Below the pieces are notes generated by a model, which saw nothing but the letters and a program-made list of their open reading frames with translations, made no database searches and was not told where the DNA came from. Positions 43,750-52,468 of a stretch of DNA of 64,000 bases are shown piece after piece; the stretch's first letter is position 1; each line of letters opens with the position of its first letter. A program made the position numbers and the translations under genes. The stretch is taken from positions 1 through 64,000 of the forward strand of contig JAQSYO010000022.1 in NCBI GenBank assembly GCA_029256105.1. Direction: 5' to 3'. The stretch comes from Herbinix sp. GTDB taxonomy: Bacteria > Bacillota > Clostridia > Lachnospirales > Lachnospiraceae.

Positions 43750-43964
43750 TTAGACACACTCCTTAGGGTTGGTTATATTCACCATTAATCTAAAATTATA
43801 TCATATTACTTCGCATTGTCAAATTAAACAATTGCATTTTAAAGATACGACTATTACAATAAAAGTATTGTGAAAAGAATTCAAAAATGAAATCCTTAAG
43901 AATTACATTTTGTGCTTCTTTCAGGTGGTAAATAACATTCGTGAAGAAAAAAAGGAGTATTACA

Positions 43965-44675
43965 ATGGAAGAGAAAGTATTACAGCAAAAATCATATACA
44001 AAGGTAATAGAACATATAAAAAAGCAAATTCGCAGTGGTGAATTAATCTCAGGAGGAAAATTGCCTGCGGAAAGAGAATTATCGCAAATACTTGGAGTTA
44101 GCCGCAATTCAGTAAGGGAGGCTATTCGAACCTTGGACATTATGGGTGTTATCTCTAGCCAGCAAGGGGCAGGTAATTATCTTACAGGTAATTTTGAAAA
44201 TAATCTGGTGGAATCCATATCGATGATGTTTTTACTGAAACAGATTGATTACCACCAAATCAGCCAATTGCGCCGAGGCTTAGAAATGCAAGCCTTAATG
44301 CTGGCAATTGATAATATATCCGATGAGGAGGTTATCATATTGAAAGAGATTAGCGCTCAGTTGGAGCATGTGACAGAAGAAAACAATGTCATACTCGATA
44401 AGAAGCTGCACTATAATATTGCAATTGCCTCCCGAAATACTTTGATTATCGATATTCTGCAAGCTTTGTCTGACTTAATCGATCAATTTATCGTGGATTT
44501 AAGAAGAGAAATAATTAGCTACCCAGATAGTAAAATTATCCTGCATGATGCGCATAATGACATGATAAAAAGCTTAATTACAAGGGATAAGAATCTGGCG
44601 TATGATGCTATTAATAAGCACTTTGGTATTATTGACGAAAAACTTAAAAATAGTGAGAACATATTCATCAAATAG
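43965..44675 (+). CDS. GntR/FadR family regulator of lactate genes (LldR-like)
   Basis: The 236-residue protein has an N-terminal winged helix (GGKLPAERELSQILGVSRNSVREAIRTL region) and a helical FCD ligand-binding domain with candidate metal ligands (LHYNIAIAS, LHDAHNDMI). ATG 43965 has AAGGAG 7 bases upstream. It lies just before the lactate permease and Etf-lactate dehydrogenase genes, whose leader holds two TGGT-N3-ACCA operators of the FadR-subfamily type. By analogy with LldR and PdhR it should be a lactate- or pyruvate-responsive repressor. Confidence 0.88.
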   Translation: MEEKVLQQKSYTKVIEHIKKQIRSGELISGGKLPAERELSQILGVSRNSVREAIRTLDIMGVISSQQGAGNYLTGNFENNLVESISMMFLLKQIDYHQISQLRRGLEMQALMLAIDNISDEEVIILKEISAQLEHVTEENNVILDKKLHYNIAIASRNTLIIDILQALSDLIDQFIVDLRREIISYPDSKIILHDAHNDMIKSLITRDKNLAYDAINKHFGIIDEKLKNSENIFIK

Positions 44676-44725
44676 TACATATTAGTTAAATCGACAAAAA
44701 ACGATTGTTAAAAAAATGACGTTTG

Positions 44726-44754
44726 TTGACAATAGAATAAAACAAAAGTATAAT
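44726..44754 (+). promoter_or_regulatory. Perfect-consensus sigma-A promoter of the lactate operon
   Basis: TTGACA at 44726 and TATAAT at 44749 have an exact 17-base spacer. Transcription should start near 44761, only about 7 bases before the first operator. Confidence 0.88.
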
Positions 44755-44767
44755 AAAGTTACAAAAG

Positions 44768-44790
44768 TGGTCCTACCAATTTGACTGGTA
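44768..44790. promoter_or_regulatory. GntR-type operator O1
   Basis: TGGTCCTACCA (44768-44778) is a perfect TGGT-N3-ACCA palindrome, followed after 7 bases by a third half-site TGGTA (44786-44790). It sits at the predicted start of transcription. Confidence 0.8.
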
Positions 44791-44935
44791 AATAGGGTGT
44801 TGCGAGACTTTCAGTTTTACTACTTAACGAAAATAGGTTTTATACTGCAGATAAAATTTTTCCTATCTTTCGTCAGTAAATAAAGCGTCCTGATATGCAA
44901 CACCCCCTTTTTTACCACCGAAATTGGTAGTACCA
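44768..44935 (+). repeat. 168 bp imperfect palindrome in the lactate-permease leader
   Basis: Left and right halves are reverse complements over most of their length, centred near CTGCAG at 44845-44850. Both operators fall in the outer ends, GGGTGTTGC and GCAACACCC (44795-44803 and 44897-44905) in the middle, CGAAAATAGG and CCTATCTTTCG inside. Six T follow the middle stem at 44908, so as RNA this is a terminator-like structure between promoter and permease. Confidence 0.85.
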
Positions 44936-44938
44936 ATT
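44913..44938. promoter_or_regulatory. GntR-type operator O2, mirror image of O1
   Basis: TACCA (44913-44917), 7 bases, then AATTGGTAGTACCAATT, whose core TGGTAGTACCA is at 44925-44935. Order and spacing are the exact mirror of O1. The 17 bp palindrome equals the PdhR-type consensus ATTGGT-N3-ACCAAT. Confidence 0.82.
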
Positions 44939-44966
44939 AGAAAAAATATGCAGAGGAGAGCAGAAC

Positions 44967-46532
44967 ATGGATATGACTTTAGCTTTTGTTTTAGCATTAT
45001 TGCCAATTATTTGGTTGATTATTGCATTAACTGCTTTAAAAATTCCGGGCTTCAAAGCCTGTACCATAGCACTAGTGATTGCTTATGGACTTGCGGTATT
45101 TGTATGGAAAATGCCGTTACTAGATAGTGTTACAGCGTTAGCGGAAGGAGCTGCACTTGCTCTTTGGCCTATCATCATTGTAATTGTAGCTGCGATTTTC
45201 ACTTACAATGTATGCGTTCATACGGGAAATATGGAAGTTATTAAGAAAATGCTAGCAAGTGTTACAAAAGATAAAAGAGTTTTAGTTTTAATCATTGCAT
45301 GGGGCTTTGGAGGCTTCATGGAAGGAATGGCGGGTTTTGGAACCGCGGTAGCAATACCGGCAAGTATGTTGTGGGGGTTAGGATTTAATCCGGTATTCGC
45401 AGCAATTGTCTGTCTGATAGCGAATGCAACTCCAACCGCATTTGGTTCCATCGGAATTCCAACAACAACATTGGCTAAAATTACTGGAATTGATGTATTT
45501 GGCTTATCGACCAACACCGTTATGATACTTGCACCACTCATTATTTTGACACCCTTTATCTTAGTGTATTTAACGGGCAAATCAAAAAAAGCATTTAAAG
45601 GGATTGGACTTATTACCTTAATATCAGGTGTATCCTTCTTAATACCAGAATATATCGTGGCAAAGTACCTAGGAGCAGAGCTTCCGGTAGTAATTGGTTC
45701 TGTTTGTTCCATGTTATGCACCATCTTAGCATCGAAAGTATTTGGTAAAAAAGAGGTTGATCCTGAATTTAGCTTAGAAAGCAATAGCAACGATAAAGCA
45801 AAAGCAAAGGCTATAACAAAGGTAACTATAAAGGAAGCACTAGTTGCTTGGAGTCCATTTATATTAATATTTGTATTCTTACTCGCAACATCAAAGTTAA
45901 TCGCACCTTTGAATGAATTACTGGCAACGGTGAAAACCTCAGTTAATATTTATACCGGAGCAAATGCTTCTGCTTACACCTTTTCCTGGTTAGCAACTCC
46001 GGGACTATGGATCATTCTTGCAGCACTGATTAGTGGCAAAATGCAAGGAGCAAGTATAAAAGAAATGCTCATTATCTTCAAGAAGACAGTCGTTCAATTA
46101 TCAAAAACAATTATAACGATTGTATGTATTATGGCTACTGCAAAAATCATGGGTTACAGTGGGATGATCCCTTCCATAGCACTTATGTTTGTTACGGTTA
46201 CAGGGTCCTTCTATCCACTATTTGCACCTATGCTTGGTTCCATCGGAACCTTTGTAACAGGAAGTGGTACCTCTGCCAGTGTATTATTTGGTGGTCTGCA
46301 GAAAGAAACTTCGGTTGCACTTAATCTGAACCAAGCGTGGATTGCAGCATCAAACACAGCAGGAGCAATATCTGCTAAGATGATTTCTCCGCAGAGTATC
46401 GCAGTTGCTGTGGCAGCAGTTAGTCTGCAGGGAAAAGAGAGTGAATTATTAAAGGGTACAATAAAATGGTTTGTTCTCTTTATTATAATCGTTGGAATTG
46501 TAACCTTCACAGGATCCAAGCTTCTTGGATAG
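44967..46532 (+). CDS. lctP: L-lactate permease
   Basis: The 521-residue integral membrane protein belongs to the LctP/LldP family of lactate-proton symporters. About twelve membrane segments are visible, with family motifs GFMEGMAGFGTAVAIPASMLW and LIANATPTAFGSIGIPTTT near residues 110-175, and ASNTAGAISAKMISPQSIAV near the C terminus. GAGGAG precedes the ATG. It is the first structural gene of the lactate operon and would bring lactate in for the Etf-coupled dehydrogenase. Confidence 0.94.
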   Translation: MDMTLAFVLALLPIIWLIIALTALKIPGFKACTIALVIAYGLAVFVWKMPLLDSVTALAEGAALALWPIIIVIVAAIFTYNVCVHTGNMEVIKKMLASVTKDKRVLVLIIAWGFGGFMEGMAGFGTAVAIPASMLWGLGFNPVFAAIVCLIANATPTAFGSIGIPTTTLAKITGIDVFGLSTNTVMILAPLIILTPFILVYLTGKSKKAFKGIGLITLISGVSFLIPEYIVAKYLGAELPVVIGSVCSMLCTILASKVFGKKEVDPEFSLESNSNDKAKAKAITKVTIKEALVAWSPFILIFVFLLATSKLIAPLNELLATVKTSVNIYTGANASAYTFSWLATPGLWIILAALISGKMQGASIKEMLIIFKKTVVQLSKTIITIVCIMATAKIMGYSGMIPSIALMFVTVTGSFYPLFAPMLGSIGTFVTGSGTSASVLFGGLQKETSVALNLNQAWIAASNTAGAISAKMISPQSIAVAVAAVSLQGKESELLKGTIKWFVLFIIIVGIVTFTGSKLLG

Positions 46533-46636: not shown

Positions 46637-47425
46637 ATGAACATTTTAGTATGTATTAAACAAGTACCGGATACCAATAAGGTAGAGGTTGATCCAATAA
46701 CAGGAGTATTAAAAAGAAACGGCGTTGAATCGAAGATGAATCCCTACGATTTATATGCAATTGAAACGGCTCTTCGAATTAAGGAAGAGGTAGGAGGTTC
46801 CATCTATGCCATAACGATGGGTCCAGGACAAGCAGCCGGAGTAATCCGAGAAGCCTTTGCTATGGGCGTTGATCAGGGAGCATTGATTTCTGATCGTAAA
46901 TTCGGCGGAGCAGACGTATTAGCAACCAGTTATACACTTTCACAAGCGATTAAAATATTAGGCGATTTTGATTTAATCCTTTGCGGAAAACAAACCACGG
47001 ACGGTGATACCGCACAGGTTGGACCTGAAGTATCCGAATGGCTTAACATTCCGAGCTTAAGTAATGTATCAAAGATTGTGGAAATTCATAACGATGCAAT
47101 GGTAGTAGAGATGGATATGACGAACGATATTGAAATTGCAAAAATACAATTCCCTTGTCTTCTTGCAGTAGACAAAGACATCTTTATGCCGAGACTTCCT
47201 TCTTATGTTAAGAAGCAGGAGACGAAGGACCGTGAAATTAGAGTGATAAGTCTGGATCAGTTAGAAGATAAAGATGAGAAAAATTATGGTTTGAATGGTT
47301 CCCCAACGCAAGTTCAACGTATTTTCCCTCCACAAGTAAATGCACACAGAGAATTATGGAATGGAACATCAACAGAACTTACGGAACAATTAATTAATAA
47401 ACTGCAGGAACTAAAGTTTGCATAG
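46637..47425 (+). CDS. etfB: Electron transfer flavoprotein beta subunit (LctB-like)
   Basis: The 262-residue protein has the EtfB features NILVCIKQVPDTNKVEVDP at the N terminus, MNPYDLYAIETALR and LILCGKQTTDGDTAQVGPEV. In bifurcating Etf complexes this subunit binds the FAD that splits electrons, and NAD. The gene order etfB-etfA-FAD dehydrogenase equals lctBCD of Acetobacterium woodii. AAGGAAGGATG precedes the ATG. Confidence 0.93.
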   Translation: MNILVCIKQVPDTNKVEVDPITGVLKRNGVESKMNPYDLYAIETALRIKEEVGGSIYAITMGPGQAAGVIREAFAMGVDQGALISDRKFGGADVLATSYTLSQAIKILGDFDLILCGKQTTDGDTAQVGPEVSEWLNIPSLSNVSKIVEIHNDAMVVEMDMTNDIEIAKIQFPCLLAVDKDIFMPRLPSYVKKQETKDREIRVISLDQLEDKDEKNYGLNGSPTQVQRIFPPQVNAHRELWNGTSTELTEQLINKLQELKFA

Positions 47426-47485
47426 TAGAACAGTTGAAAGATAAATCAATTTCATAACATGAATTATAAATAAGGTAATTCATAT

Positions 47486-47542
47486 AAAAAAGCACTTATG
47501 TGTCTTTTGCATCTAGTGTCGCCTTTGGCGAAGGAATGGAGG
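47486..47542 (+). repeat. Dispersed palindromic element, copy B, supplying the etfA ribosome site
   Basis: AAAAAGCACTTATGTGTCTT opens the element, followed by a short GCCTTTGGCG hairpin and TGGAGG. The order is as in copy A at 38170-38227. The TGGAGG is the ribosome site of etfA, 10 bases before its ATG. Confidence 0.65.
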
Positions 47543-47551
47543 AAATTATTA

Positions 47552-48739
47552 ATGGCTAAATTGGTTGTAAATCAAAGCTTGGTTGGAAATATTGAGGAGT
47601 TGATCAGTCTCTGTCCGTTTGGAGCAATGGAAGACAAAAACGGCGAACTCCAAATAAATTCAGCTTGTAAGATGTGTAAAATATGTGTGAAAAAAGGCCC
47701 CAAGGGAGCTGTAGAATATATAGAAGAAGAAGTAGTAGCTGTAGATAAAAATTTATGGAAGGGAATTGCTGTTTATGTAGATCATATTGACGGTGCAATC
47801 CATCCGGTTACTTACGAGTTGATTGGTAAGGCAAAGGAATTGGCAGCGAAGATCAACCATCCGGTGTATGCTATTATGATGGGCAGCAATATCGAAAAAC
47901 AGTGTCATGAGTTACTTCATTATAACGTAGATAAAATATTTGTTTATGATCATGAGAAATTGGATCGCTTTAAAATGGAGCCCTATACCGCAGTATTTGA
48001 AGACTTTGTTAATAATGTAAAGCCTACAGCAATCTTAATAGGGGCAACTCCGGTGGGACGTCAATTAGCACCAAGACTTTCCGCAAGAGTAAAGACCGGA
48101 CTTACCGCAGATTGTACGATACTTGATATCAATGAAAATACAGATCTTGTACAAATTAGACCTGCCTTCGGCGGTAACATTATGGCTCAGATATTAACAC
48201 CAAATCATAGACCACAGATGGCAACCGTAAGATACAAGGTAATGGATGCACCGAAGAGAAATTCATCTGAAAACGGTGAAATAGTGAAGTGCGCTATTGA
48301 TACAGATAAACTGGACAGTAAAGTAGATGTACTTGATATCATTGCGAAGGAAAAAGAACAATTTATTGAAGCTTCTGAGGTGCTTGTAGTAGCAGGGCGT
48401 GGCATTAAAAAGGAAGAAGATATAGCAATGGTACAGGAATTAGCGGACCTATTAGGAGGACAGCTCGCCTGTACAAGACCAGTGATGGAAGCAGGATGGT
48501 TAGAGCCAAAGCGTCAAGTAGGACTTAGTGGACGAACAGTGAGACCAAAGTTAATTATTACGGTAGGAGTATCTGGTTCCGTTCAATTTACCGCAGGTAT
48601 GAATAATTCCGATCAAATCATAGCAATTAACAAGGATGAAAATGCACCGATATTTAAGACAGCACACTATGGTCTTGTAGGTGATCTCTATGAGATTATT
48701 CCAAACCTAATCAATCAGATTAAGGCTAGTAAAGAGTAG
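47552..48739 (+). CDS. etfA: Electron transfer flavoprotein alpha subunit with N-terminal ferredoxin domain (LctC-like)
   Basis: The 395-residue protein starts with a ferredoxin-like domain (about 1-60) holding Cys21, Cys39, Cys42 and Cys45, enough for one [4Fe-4S] cluster. The usual KKCP of a second cluster is KKGP here. The EtfA part follows: a Rossmann-like domain (about 70-250) and the FAD domain with GRGIKKEEDIAMVQELADLL and VGLSGRTVRPKLIITVGVSG. The added cluster is typical of bifurcating Etf proteins, where it passes electrons to or from ferredoxin. ATG 47552 follows TGGAGG; the longer frame from 47498 runs through a repeat element. Confidence 0.93.
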   Translation: MAKLVVNQSLVGNIEELISLCPFGAMEDKNGELQINSACKMCKICVKKGPKGAVEYIEEEVVAVDKNLWKGIAVYVDHIDGAIHPVTYELIGKAKELAAKINHPVYAIMMGSNIEKQCHELLHYNVDKIFVYDHEKLDRFKMEPYTAVFEDFVNNVKPTAILIGATPVGRQLAPRLSARVKTGLTADCTILDINENTDLVQIRPAFGGNIMAQILTPNHRPQMATVRYKVMDAPKRNSSENGEIVKCAIDTDKLDSKVDVLDIIAKEKEQFIEASEVLVVAGRGIKKEEDIAMVQELADLLGGQLACTRPVMEAGWLEPKRQVGLSGRTVRPKLIITVGVSGSVQFTAGMNNSDQIIAINKDENAPIFKTAHYGLVGDLYEIIPNLINQIKASKE

Positions 48740-48811
48740 GCCGCAAATGAACCAAATATCTCGATTTTACTATTAAAGTCAGTGTTTATTCACTAAATGG
48801 AGGTTAATAGA

Positions 48812-50215
48812 ATGAACTATAAAAAATTAGATCAAGAAGATATAAATTTTATAAATAATATTATCAACGATTCTGAAAGGGTATTATTCGGTGAGGATAT
48901 CAATGAGGAATATAGCCATGATGAATTAAGTGATACAGTAAGTTTTCCGGATGTAGTTGTGAAAATCACTTCTACAGAAGAATTATCTCAAATCATGAAG
49001 TATGCCTATGCAAATAATATTCCTGTCACTCCTCGTGGATCGGGAACCGGACTTGTAGGTTCCTCCGTAGCAATTGAACATGGTATTATGATCGATACAA
49101 CATTAATGAATCACTTCCTTGAACTAGATGAAAATAATTTAACAATTACAGTGGAACCAGGTGTACTGCTCATGGAGCTTTCTGCTTATGTTCAAGAAAG
49201 AGACTTATTCTATCCTCCGGATCCGGGCGAGAAATCAGCAACCATCGGTGGAAATATCAGTACCAATGCAGGTGGAATGCGAGCTGTTAAATACGGTGTT
49301 ACAAGAGATTATGTCCGTGGACTTGAAGTAGTATTACCGGATGGTACAGTCGTAGAATTCGGCGGTAAGGTAGTTAAGAATAGTACCGGTTATGCAATGA
49401 AGGATCTAATGGTAGGTTCCGAAGGAACACTTGGTATCATCACAAAAGCAATATTAAAGTTAATACCACTGCCTAAGAAAGCAATCAGCTTATTAATACC
49501 ATTCCCTTCTTTAGAGACAGCGATTAGAACGGTACCTATGATTATTAAGTCAAAATCTGCGCCAACAGCAATTGAGTTTATGCAAAGAGAAGTTATCATG
49601 GATGCAGAAAAGTATCTTGGAAAGAAATTCCCTGACAATAGTGCAGATGCCTACCTGCTTTTAAAATTTGATGGAAATTCAACAGAGGAAGTAGAGAAGG
49701 CTTATGAAAGTGCTGCCAAAATCTGTTTGGAGCAAGGAGCGATTGATATTCTGATATCAGATACCAGTGAGAGAGAGGATTCCATCTGGAAAGCCAGAGG
49801 CGCCTTCCTGGAAGCAATCAAAGGTTCTACAACTTACATGGACGAGGTTGACGTAGTAGTTCCAAGAAGCTCCGTAAATGAAATGGTAGAATACATTCAT
49901 AGCTTATACAAGGAAGTAAATATCCGAATCAAGAGCTTTGGCCATGCAGGCGATGGAAACCTTCACGCATATGTACTAAAGGATGATTTAAGCGAAGAAG
50001 AATGGGAAAGCAAAATGACAGCTGCTATGGATAAAATCTATGGAAAAGCGAGAGAATTAAAAGGCCAGGTGTCTGGTGAGCATGGTATTGGCTACGCTAA
50101 GAAGTCTTATTTATTACAATCAATGGACCCTGCTACCGTAGAAATTATGAGAGGAATTAAGAAAGCCTTTGATCCAAAGAACATTCTAAATCCCCATAAA
50201 GTATGTCAGATGTAA
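48812..50215 (+). CDS. lctD: FAD-dependent lactate dehydrogenase (GlcD family, LctD-like)
   Basis: The 467-residue flavoprotein has a PCMH-type FAD domain ([40 protein letters not shown]) and a C-terminal substrate domain with [15 protein letters not shown] and [11 protein letters not shown]. It oxidises lactate (D-type by family, though stereochemistry cannot be read) to pyruvate and passes electrons to the Etf pair encoded upstream. In the A. woodii complex, NAD reduction by lactate is driven by oxidation of reduced ferredoxin. ATG 48812 has GGAGG 8 bases upstream. It is the last gene before a strong terminator. Confidence 0.92.
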
Positions 50216-50303: not shown

Positions 50304-50388
50304 GATTCTGGAATACTCTCAAGAAACATGATTTGTTGCAAATTATTTCAAAGCATTATATTCAAAGTACTACCACTGATTCCCTCTG

Positions 50389-50396
50389 CATACAAT
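50389..50396 (+). promoter_or_regulatory. Sigma-E-type -10 box of spoIIID
   Basis: CATACAAT matches the sporulation sigma-E -10 consensus exactly and lies about 18 bases before the spoIIID ribosome site. I see no convincing -35 element at the right distance. Confidence 0.5.
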
Positions 50397-50413
50397 GTAA
50401 CAACAACGATAAT

Positions 50414-50458
50414 AAGGGGGAATGCGTTCCGTCCATAGGCTGGAACGCAGACACTATG
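50414..50458 (+). promoter_or_regulatory. Hairpin-bridged Shine-Dalgarno of spoIIID
   Basis: AAGGGGG (50414-50420) is 35 bases from ATG 50456, too far to work directly. Between them TGCGTTCC (50423-50430) and GGAACGCA (50442-50449) form a perfect 8 bp stem with an 11-base loop. When it folds, 2 unpaired bases before and 6 after leave an effective spacing of 8. Confidence 0.6.
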
Positions 50459-50725
50459 AAAGGCTATATAGAGGAACGGGCGGTAGAAATCGCTAATTAT
50501 ATTATCGATAATAATGCGACAGTGAGGCAAACCGCAAAGCAGTTCGGTATTTCGAAATCGACCGTACATAAAGACGTAACAGAACGTCTTGCTCAAATCA
50601 ACCCCTCCCTCGCAGAGAAAGCGCGGGTAGTCTTGGATCTCAATAAGTCAGAGCGTCATATCAGAGGCGGCTTGGCAACGAAGGAAAAATATCTCCATAA
50701 GACGAGATATAATCAAGCTTATTAA
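50456..50725 (+). CDS. spoIIID: Sporulation transcription regulator SpoIIID
   Basis: The 89-residue DNA-binding protein acts in the mother cell during sporulation. It shows the strongly conserved KGYIEERAVEIANYIIDNNA start, the helix-turn-helix VRQTAKQFGISKSTVHKDVT and the basic C-terminal ERHIRGGLATKEKYLHKTR. I start at ATG 50456 from the family N terminus; no direct ribosome site is next to it (see the bridged hairpin). A sigma-E-like -10 box lies upstream, matching its known control in Bacillus. A terminator follows. Its presence shows the organism has sporulation genes. Confidence 0.95.
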   Translation: MKGYIEERAVEIANYIIDNNATVRQTAKQFGISKSTVHKDVTERLAQINPSLAEKARVVLDLNKSERHIRGGLATKEKYLHKTRYNQAY

Positions 50726-51148: not shown

Positions 51149-52468
51149 ATGGGTAGGTTAACATTTCCGGGTGGCATCCATACTTATGACGGCAAAAACC
51201 TGACTATGGATAAACCCACAACGGTCCTTTTACCAAAGGGTGATTTGGTTTTTCCGGTATCTCAACATATCGGTGCTCCAGCAAAGCCAATTGTAGCAAA
51301 GGGGGATAAGGTTCTGGTAGGCCAGAAAATAGCGGAGGCCGGAGGATTTATATCCTCTAATATCATCAGCTCAGTATCAGGAACGGTTAAAGAAATCGAA
51401 AAACGGTTAACCGTATCTGGAAATATGGTAGAAGCTATCGTAATAGAAAATGACAATGAATATCAGACAGTAGAGGGATTTGGACTTGAACGTGATTATA
51501 AAAAGCTATCAAAAGATGAAATAAGAAATTATGTAAAAGAAGCAGGTATTGTTGGATTAGGTGGTGCAGGATTCCCGACACATGTTAAACTGGCACCCAA
51601 GGACGACAGTAAAATTGATTATGTTATTATCAATGGTGCAGAGTGCGAACCGTACTTAACCTCTGATTATCGTATGATGATAGAAGAACCTGAGAAGCTC
51701 GTAGGTGGATTAAAAATAATGTTAAGCATATTTGATCATGCCAAAGGTATTATTGCAATTGAGGATAATAAGCCGGAAGCAATTAAAAAAATTCAGGCAT
51801 TAACCGCAGGGGAAGACAAGATTGAAATCGTAGCACTTAAGACCAAATATCCACAAGGCGGAGAACGTCAGTTGGTATACGCAACAACCGGAAGAAAATT
51901 GAATTCTAAGAAGCTTCCCTCTGATGTTGGATGTGTAGTTGATAATGTAGATACGGTTATATCCATTTATATGGCTGTAGCGAAAAGTACTCCGTTAATA
52001 CGAAAAATTGTCACAGTTTCAGGAGATGCAGTAAAAAATCCTCAGAACTTTAATGTAGCAATCGGAATTGATTATTGGGAAATTTTAGAAGCGGCAGGCG
52101 GCTTTATAGAAAGACCGGAGAAGATGATTTCAGGCGGTCCTATGATGGGTATGGCATTGTTTAGTTGTAATGTACCTGTGATGAAGACTACCTCGGCATT
52201 ACTTGGTTTTCTACAGGACAAGTCAGCAGTGGAGGAATCACCTTGTATCCGTTGTGGAAAATGCGCTGAAAAATGTCCGCTGCAATTAATGCCTTTCCAA
52301 TTAGCTGCCCTAAGTAATCGGAATGATGATGCAGGATTTGTGAAGCTGGATGGTTTAGAGTGCTGTGGCTGTGGATGTTGTTCCTATGTCTGTCCGGCAA
52401 AACGTAGTTTATCCCAGTCCATAATGCAGTCAAGAAACAGTATTTTAGCTAAGAAAAAGAAAGCGTAA
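51149..52468 (+). CDS. rnfC: Rnf complex subunit RnfC
   Basis: The 439-residue cytoplasmic subunit receives or delivers electrons to NAD. It begins FPGGIHTYDGKN, has a Rossmann-like FMN/NADH-binding part (GIVGLGGAGFPTHVKLAP) and two [4Fe-4S] motifs near the C terminus (CIRCGKCAEKCP and CCGCGCCSYVCP). First gene of rnfCDGEAB, with AGAGGG upstream. The Rnf complex couples ferredoxin oxidation and NAD reduction to export of sodium ions or protons and can also run in reverse. Confidence 0.96.
   Translation: MGRLTFPGGIHTYDGKNLTMDKPTTVLLPKGDLVFPVSQHIGAPAKPIVAKGDKVLVGQKIAEAGGFISSNIISSVSGTVKEIEKRLTVSGNMVEAIVIENDNEYQTVEGFGLERDYKKLSKDEIRNYVKEAGIVGLGGAGFPTHVKLAPKDDSKIDYVIINGAECEPYLTSDYRMMIEEPEKLVGGLKIMLSIFDHAKGIIAIEDNKPEAIKKIQALTAGEDKIEIVALKTKYPQGGERQLVYATTGRKLNSKKLPSDVGCVVDNVDTVISIYMAVAKSTPLIRKIVTVSGDAVKNPQNFNVAIGIDYWEILEAAGGFIERPEKMISGGPMMGMALFSCNVPVMKTTSALLGFLQDKSAVEESPCIRCGKCAEKCPLQLMPFQLAALSNRNDDAGFVKLDGLECCGCGCCSYVCPAKRSLSQSIMQSRNSILAKKKKA

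Follow-up and report, generated by a model that had tools for sequence, protein, structure and literature searches.

A terminator-like hairpin is kept narrowly ahead of the second of two operators in lactate-operon leaders beside a GntR-type regulator gene

In the window, by which we mean the whole 64,000-nucleotide stretch of Herbinix sp. DNA analysed here (contig JAQSYO010000022.1), the leader of a likely lct operon consists of a promoter, an operator (O1), a hairpin, a T-tract and a second operator (O2), and this order is kept in 34 of 51 regulator-linked loci. The distance from the T-tract to O2 is narrow, the longest T-run (at least 4) ending 6–13 nt ahead of the TGGT of O2 in 31 of the 34 leaders, against 3.7 in dinucleotide shuffles of the same stretches. 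From this architecture, which the comparison of leaders establishes, we infer a roadblock-assisted attenuation, to which we assign a probability of roughly 45% and in which a repressor at O1 would block the promoter and at O2 would stall escaped polymerase on the terminator.

The GntR-type, LctA/LldR-like regulator gene (43941–44675, plus strand; start codon uncertain) encodes a protein with the GntR helix-turn-helix (PF00392, 6.6e-18) and the FCD domain (PF07729, 7.3e-16) in Pfam, which places it in the FadR subfamily. Its closest relative among solved structures is the 2DI3 chain, the LldR of C. glutamicum according to PMC4494728 (cited, like the other papers below, from part of its text). 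The top NCBIfam model, the LldR equivalog NF007741, scores 96.9 bits, below its cutoff of 311, and the window regulator is not an LldR of the E. coli type. The likely lct operon follows on the same strand, with lctP for a lactate permease as its first gene (44967–46532; Pfam Lactate_perm, TIGR00795) and etfB, etfA and a glcD-type dehydrogenase gene as the remainder (46637–50215). Named relatives of the locus include some from metagenome-assembled genomes labelled Herbinix or Candidatus Epulonipiscium, from Anaerocolumna sp. AGMB13025 and from Clostridium sp. KNHs205. On the 3' side of the operon lie genes for a SpoIIID-type sporulation regulator (50333–50725) and an rnfC-like protein (51149–52468); Rnf adjoining lactate oxidation would fit energy coupling.

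The leader begins with the perfect TTGACA-17-TATAAT promoter named in the initial annotation, all 12 of its 12 letters being present on the plus strand (TTGACA at 44726–44731, TATAAT at 44749–44754). O1 (TGGTCCTACCA, TGGT-CCT-ACCA) occupies 44768–44778, about +8 to +18 from a predicted start at 44761. It is followed on the plus strand by the 5' arm of the terminator stem (GGGTGTTGC, 44795–44803), a variable interior that is an imperfect hairpin in itself and differs widely in length among relatives (44804–44896), and the 3' arm (GCAACACCC, 44897–44905), both arms being recognised as an inverted repeat and in the predicted fold. A T6 tract (44908–44913) ends 11 nt ahead of the TGGT of O2 (TGGTAGTACCA, TGGT-AGT-ACCA, 44925–44935), which lies within a 17-bp dyad (44922–44938). 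Both operators have the form TKGT-N3-ACMA described in PMC4494728 and stand beside lactate genes, with lctP, etfBA and the glcD-type gene downstream. The LctA of A. woodii binds TGGT(CTG)ACCA and is released by lactate (PMC12910521), a finding that renders the operator assignment likely.

The same stretch had been described as one palindrome with mirrored blocks at both ends. The letters are indeed as described, with O1-N7-TGGTA on the left, TACCA (44913–44917)-N7-O2 on the right, and inner arms leading into T6 with CC between the 3' arm and the T-run; an inverted-repeat search gave outer arms at 44765–44802/44901–44938 (76%) and inner arms at 44790–44803/44897–44910 (86%). As a functional unit, the single palindrome is not supported, with stems, lengths and half-sites varying freely across leaders. 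Since O1-N7-TGGTA is kept in 2 of the 34 leaders and TACCA-N7-O2 in 3, the mirror half-sites were rejected as additional operators, and the outer symmetry is not independent evidence because any two copies of a palindromic operator mirror each other. A multi-copy palindromic element was rejected too, since a search of the leader's own genome with the leader DNA at E ≤ 0.001 gave a single match.

Two further elements were observed in the window. Upstream of the −35 box, at 44706–44720, lies an imperfect dyad TGTKA-N6-TRAC (TGTTAAAAAAATGAC), found 61–67 bp ahead of O1 in 15 of the 34 leaders and in 13 of these at 61–62 bp; it resembles either the site of a Rex-type redox repressor or an AT-rich promoter element. 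A second perfect promoter, TTGACA-16-TATAAT with TG ahead of the −10 box, lies on the minus strand (43822–43795) and faces a minus-strand open reading frame (43749–43234).

The leaders compared were gathered beside close relatives of the regulator, giving 51 loci (15 together with the 24 loci L095–L118, the 10 loci L120–L129, and L135 and L136), and operators were defined as TGGT-N3-RCCA, a definition that weaker second sites would escape. Behind a promoter, an O1–O2 pair 20–330 bp apart is present in 34 of these loci and absent from 17 (L098, L102, L103 and L105–L118). The 34 were first chosen by eye; a pair finder applied to the remaining loci, except L118 with no site, returned only L119 and a 13-bp pair in L109. 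L119 was left out as a repeat of the L087 leader, and loci on contigs shared by two collections were counted once. Outside the count stand L155, which was found later, the weaker GntR matches L052–L071, and four LctP relatives without a close regulator (L081, L082, L092 and L093). The leaders are related by descent, and their regulator proteins form 6 clusters at 70% identity. In all 34 leaders the promoter is near-consensus (10–12 of 12 matches, with a spacer of 17 in 33 and 16 in one, 16–18 being allowed), and O2 lies downstream of it, inside the transcribed leader, as a roadblock site does.

A T-rich tract near O2 was seen by eye in each of the 34 leaders. The narrow distance also holds when related sequences are thinned: with one leader per cluster of regulators at 80% identity, 20 of 21 fall within 6–13 nt. 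Three leaders fall outside the window of distances: L080 at 14 nt; L121 at 22 nt, where the longest T-run is part of the stem and ATATATTTC is the tract that follows the stem; and L123 at 4 nt, which has a pair of T6 runs, the more distant of them 11 nt from O2. Other intervals are loose, with 6–224 nt from O1 to the T-run, 35–251 bp from O1 to O2 and, in the 14 leaders measured, 31–269 nt from O2 to the start codon. Position by position, T-content at 12, 13, 14, 15, 16 and 17 nt before the core of O2 is 91, 88, 74, 94, 76 and 74%, and the only T peaks ahead of O1 are separate ones (at most 82%) within the −10 box. This narrow distance, kept while the stems change, suggests that repression and termination are mechanically coupled; the initial annotation, which had placed the two layers in one symmetric structure, overlooked this spacing, and it is the spacing that links them.

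The intrinsic terminator anticipated ahead of lctP is borne out as a terminator-like hairpin that precedes the operon and is kept in relatives. In the window, the transcript folds more stably than its shuffles (z −5.2 for 44761–44966 and −4.7 for the part to 44920), and the stretch from the predicted start to the second T of the tract gives z −3.05, or −3.47 with O1 omitted. For that stretch, z is below −2 in 29 of the 34 leaders (mean −3.1), the exceptions being L087, L088, L100, L125 and L126. The folds were repeated without O1 because O1, itself a small palindrome, adds to the signal; z is then below −2 in 23 of 34 (mean −2.56) and above zero in four, and L100 gives no value. The four are L094, L097 and L104, where O1 is a stem arm, and L125, which has no fold signal either way (−0.36 with O1, 0.52 without). 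A hairpin of at most 60 nt ending at the tract reached p ≤ 0.05 against 60 shuffles each in 19 of 34 leaders, a test that is invalid for long leaders such as that of the window, whose arms are farther apart. For L121 and L123, the T-tract was placed by hand in both the fold and the hairpin tests. In long leaders, the final arm ahead of the T-tract has a 5' partner arm in the predicted folds, and in the window helices inside the 93-nt loop bring the terminator arms together. A simple terminator scan of the window, with a loop limit of 8 nt, gave 0 sites. The window leader thus has the stem followed by a T-tract and the fold beyond chance of an intrinsic terminator, and lacks its short loop. At the loop of a hairpin, an 11-nt sequence (ATACTGCAGAT, 44842–44852) is identical in the window and in the long leaders L079, L085 and L089, and its flanks differ.

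The initial annotation had also proposed that the leader be folded and compared across relatives for covariation. In 14 leaders with a stem like that of the window, 88.9% of the cells of this stem, P1, pair (3 of 2000 shuffles as high) and 7 double changes occur where shuffles give 2.5, a count at least as high being reached in 10 of 2000, with an ordinary number of pair types (275 of 2000) and with 9-bp arms chosen and anchored by hand, a choice that leans towards pairing. In other clades, the stems at this position differ in sequence. Relatives with operators and no central stem, which would have spoken against the annotation, are not the pattern seen among the 34 leaders. The transcript of O1 supplies one arm of the terminator stem in L087, L094, L097 and L104, and three of the four lose their fold signal without O1, so that one sequence may serve both as a DNA operator and as part of an RNA hairpin. 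We read this turnover as selection for a hairpin with a T-tract at that position, not for one RNA sequence.

Ten loci with a single operator beside a related regulator (L102, L103, L105, L107, L108 and L111–L115) show no clear terminator ahead of the gene. Weak candidates occur in L102, L103 and L105. L108 and L113 have stronger hairpins (−16.6 and −13.1, respectively), which start 165 and 113 nt into the searched stretch; judged by position, the one in L113 is part of coding sequence. In the E. coli lldP leader, two sequences that resemble operators, AATTGGCCCTACCAATT and AATTGGCAGTGCCACTT, were recognised by eye and not matched by the strict pattern TNGT-N3-ACNA, and the leader contains no T-run of 5 or more.

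On the basis of this arrangement, we propose the following sequence of events, in which (i) in the absence of lactate, the LctA/LldR-like repressor would sit on O1 and shut the near-consensus promoter, a block to be expected because O1 overlaps initial transcription; (ii) the same repressor would also occupy O2 downstream; (iii) a polymerase that has passed O1 would make the leader hairpin and then meet the repressor on O2; (iv) the stall point would be the T-tract, where the enzyme, stalled on a terminator, would be released, or locked by the hairpin, rather than pushing through; and (v) with lactate, the repressor would leave both sites, the added pause at the T-tract would vanish and more transcripts would reach lctP. 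RNA polymerase stalled by EcoRI-Q111 stops 14 nt upstream of the site of that protein (PMC5499547); if LctA behaves like EcoRI-Q111, the 3' end of the stalled RNA would fall in the T-tract, and by this analogy the peak of T-content at 12–17 nt lies about where a DNA-bound protein would stall polymerase. LacI, CcpA, CodY, PurR and GalR are known to act as roadblocks (PMC10310618, PMC4132739). Some evidence counts against this scheme. Several hairpins look strong on their own, at −12 to −17 kcal/mol with T7–T8 (for example L084, L088, L090, L096 and L120), and might stop polymerase with or without a repressor. In addition, backtracking of up to 4 nt was seen for polymerase halted at EcoRI*, and a hairpin stabilised a complex formed by head-on collision of two RNA polymerases in vitro, with a half-life of 150 instead of 6 min (PMC13082048), so that a locked rather than a released polymerase could result. 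Tentatively, and at somewhat less than even odds, we regard the leader as a conditional terminator in which a metabolite-sensing repressor at O2 would pin polymerase at the T-tract and the intrinsic terminator would otherwise be leaky; one protein and one signal would then control both initiation at O1 and early termination at O2, without a riboswitch or an RNA-binding protein.

In the main rival, repression is by DNA looping or is of the plain kind, and the terminator acts separately as a backstop. The initial annotation suggested looping after the E. coli LldR model, and the part of it that stands is the pair of operators next to a GntR/FadR-type regulator gene. If O1 and O2 were bridged by a DNA loop, the hairpin would only catch leaky transcripts, and two good operators are indeed present in all 34 leaders; two-site regulators of the FadR type are known, for example LldR, and the 157 bp between O1 and O2 in the window corresponds to 14.95 helical turns of 10.5 bp, nearly 15. 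Across the leaders, however, the spacing does not support looping: the 26 distinct O1–O2 distances give Rayleigh p values from 0.42 to 0.10 for helical repeats of 10.3–10.7, the lowest values leaning to one face, and 26 of the 34 distances are 35–87 bp. Moreover, in E. coli the first LldR operator lies upstream of the promoter and the operators flank it, whereas here both lie downstream of the −10 box, and the E. coli leader, as noted, has no such T-run. A free backstop would also need no narrow distance to O2, and on balance we consider this rival rather unlikely. The near-consensus promoters and the position of the T-tract just ahead of O2 would equally suit a terminator that protects the O2-bound repressor from dislodgement, or clears queued polymerases, while termination itself is independent of the repressor; trailing polymerases do help to push past a roadblock (PMC4132739, PMC10310618). 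Such protection needs no exact spacing, however, and full induction would always lose transcripts at the terminator, which makes it improbable in our view.

Strong folds, the P1 covariation and the ATACTGCAGAT loop kept in four long leaders could point instead to an RNA-based attenuator, in which a ligand, protein or RNA sensed by the leader would switch the terminator and O2 would be incidental. Against this, the interior differs widely in length and, by eye, in sequence, stems are unlike across clades, no alternative antiterminator was noticed in the leaders, and no Rfam family matches at gathering score, the four sub-threshold hits being to three miRNA models and one snoRNA model. An RNA sensor is very unlikely because no conserved core was seen across clades, and a riboswitch or known cis-acting RNA was rejected for want of an Rfam match and of a conserved aptamer core. 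Finally, the leaders are related and part of the set has a common P1 stem (14 compared), as it would if a functionless terminator-like hairpin had been inherited beside O2 in one lineage or had arisen by chance; but separate regulator clusters have dissimilar stems at that position, and the spacing holds in 31 of 34 leaders against 3.7 expected, so that we find this barely credible.

Operators, roadblocks and intrinsic terminators are each already known, and roadblock-assisted attenuation would combine them. E. coli lldPRD likewise has a lactate regulator, LldR, and two operator-like sequences ahead of lldP, but the window has a terminator-like hairpin between its two operators, downstream of the promoter. 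RNA polymerase I terminators bound by Reb1 or TTF-I also place a protein on DNA just downstream of a T-rich release element, as in the window; in contrast, they are eukaryotic and constitutive and require no RNA hairpin. The LctA–lctBCDEF system of A. woodii is likewise lactate-responsive, with its TGGT(CTG)ACCA operator between regulator and operon, but its description in the part of PMC12910521 consulted names one site and no terminator, and the comparison is with that description. Like the repressor proposed here, CcpA, CodY, LacI, PurR and GalR stop elongating polymerase from within the transcribed region; there, however, release is by Mfd, or by Rho in vitro, and the consulted parts of PMC10310618 and PMC4132739 describe no roadblock site just behind an intrinsic terminator. 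In collision-positioned bidirectional terminators, a hairpin and a physical block on DNA again position RNA 3' ends, although that block is another, convergent RNA polymerase and not a ligand-controlled repressor, as far as the available text of PMC13082048 goes. Among titles and abstract openings of the open-licence literature, we found no description of an intrinsic terminator narrowly ahead of a repressor's second operator.

It is usual to regard repression and attenuation as distinct layers, each with a sensor of its own, and the leaders raise a testable question, namely whether an ordinary metabolite-sensing repressor can set termination efficiency through DNA. The lct operon of Anaerobutyricum soehngenii changes by about 14 log2 units on lactate (PMC8914356), and a coupled device could help to explain such very tight control, should that species carry a leader of this kind.

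Pattern searches extended the survey beyond the regulator-linked loci. A search of the window's own genome found no closely spaced operator pairs. Family-wide, a T5 followed after 5–13 nt by an operator occurs in 16 of 397 genomes, against 4 with the reversed pattern. Of 15 loci from this search that were inspected, two (L142 and L152) duplicate leaders already known; L164 carries a single operator beside ETF-like genes, and most others likewise have a single operator, with no match to lct genes. The new L155 is a more distant etfB leader with two operators, the second of which is preceded by a GAGAAACG/CGTTTCTC hairpin and a T-rich tract. A different two-operator layout was observed in a distant genome, where two operators only 13 bp apart (L109, 1327–1350) stand beside a related regulator gene.
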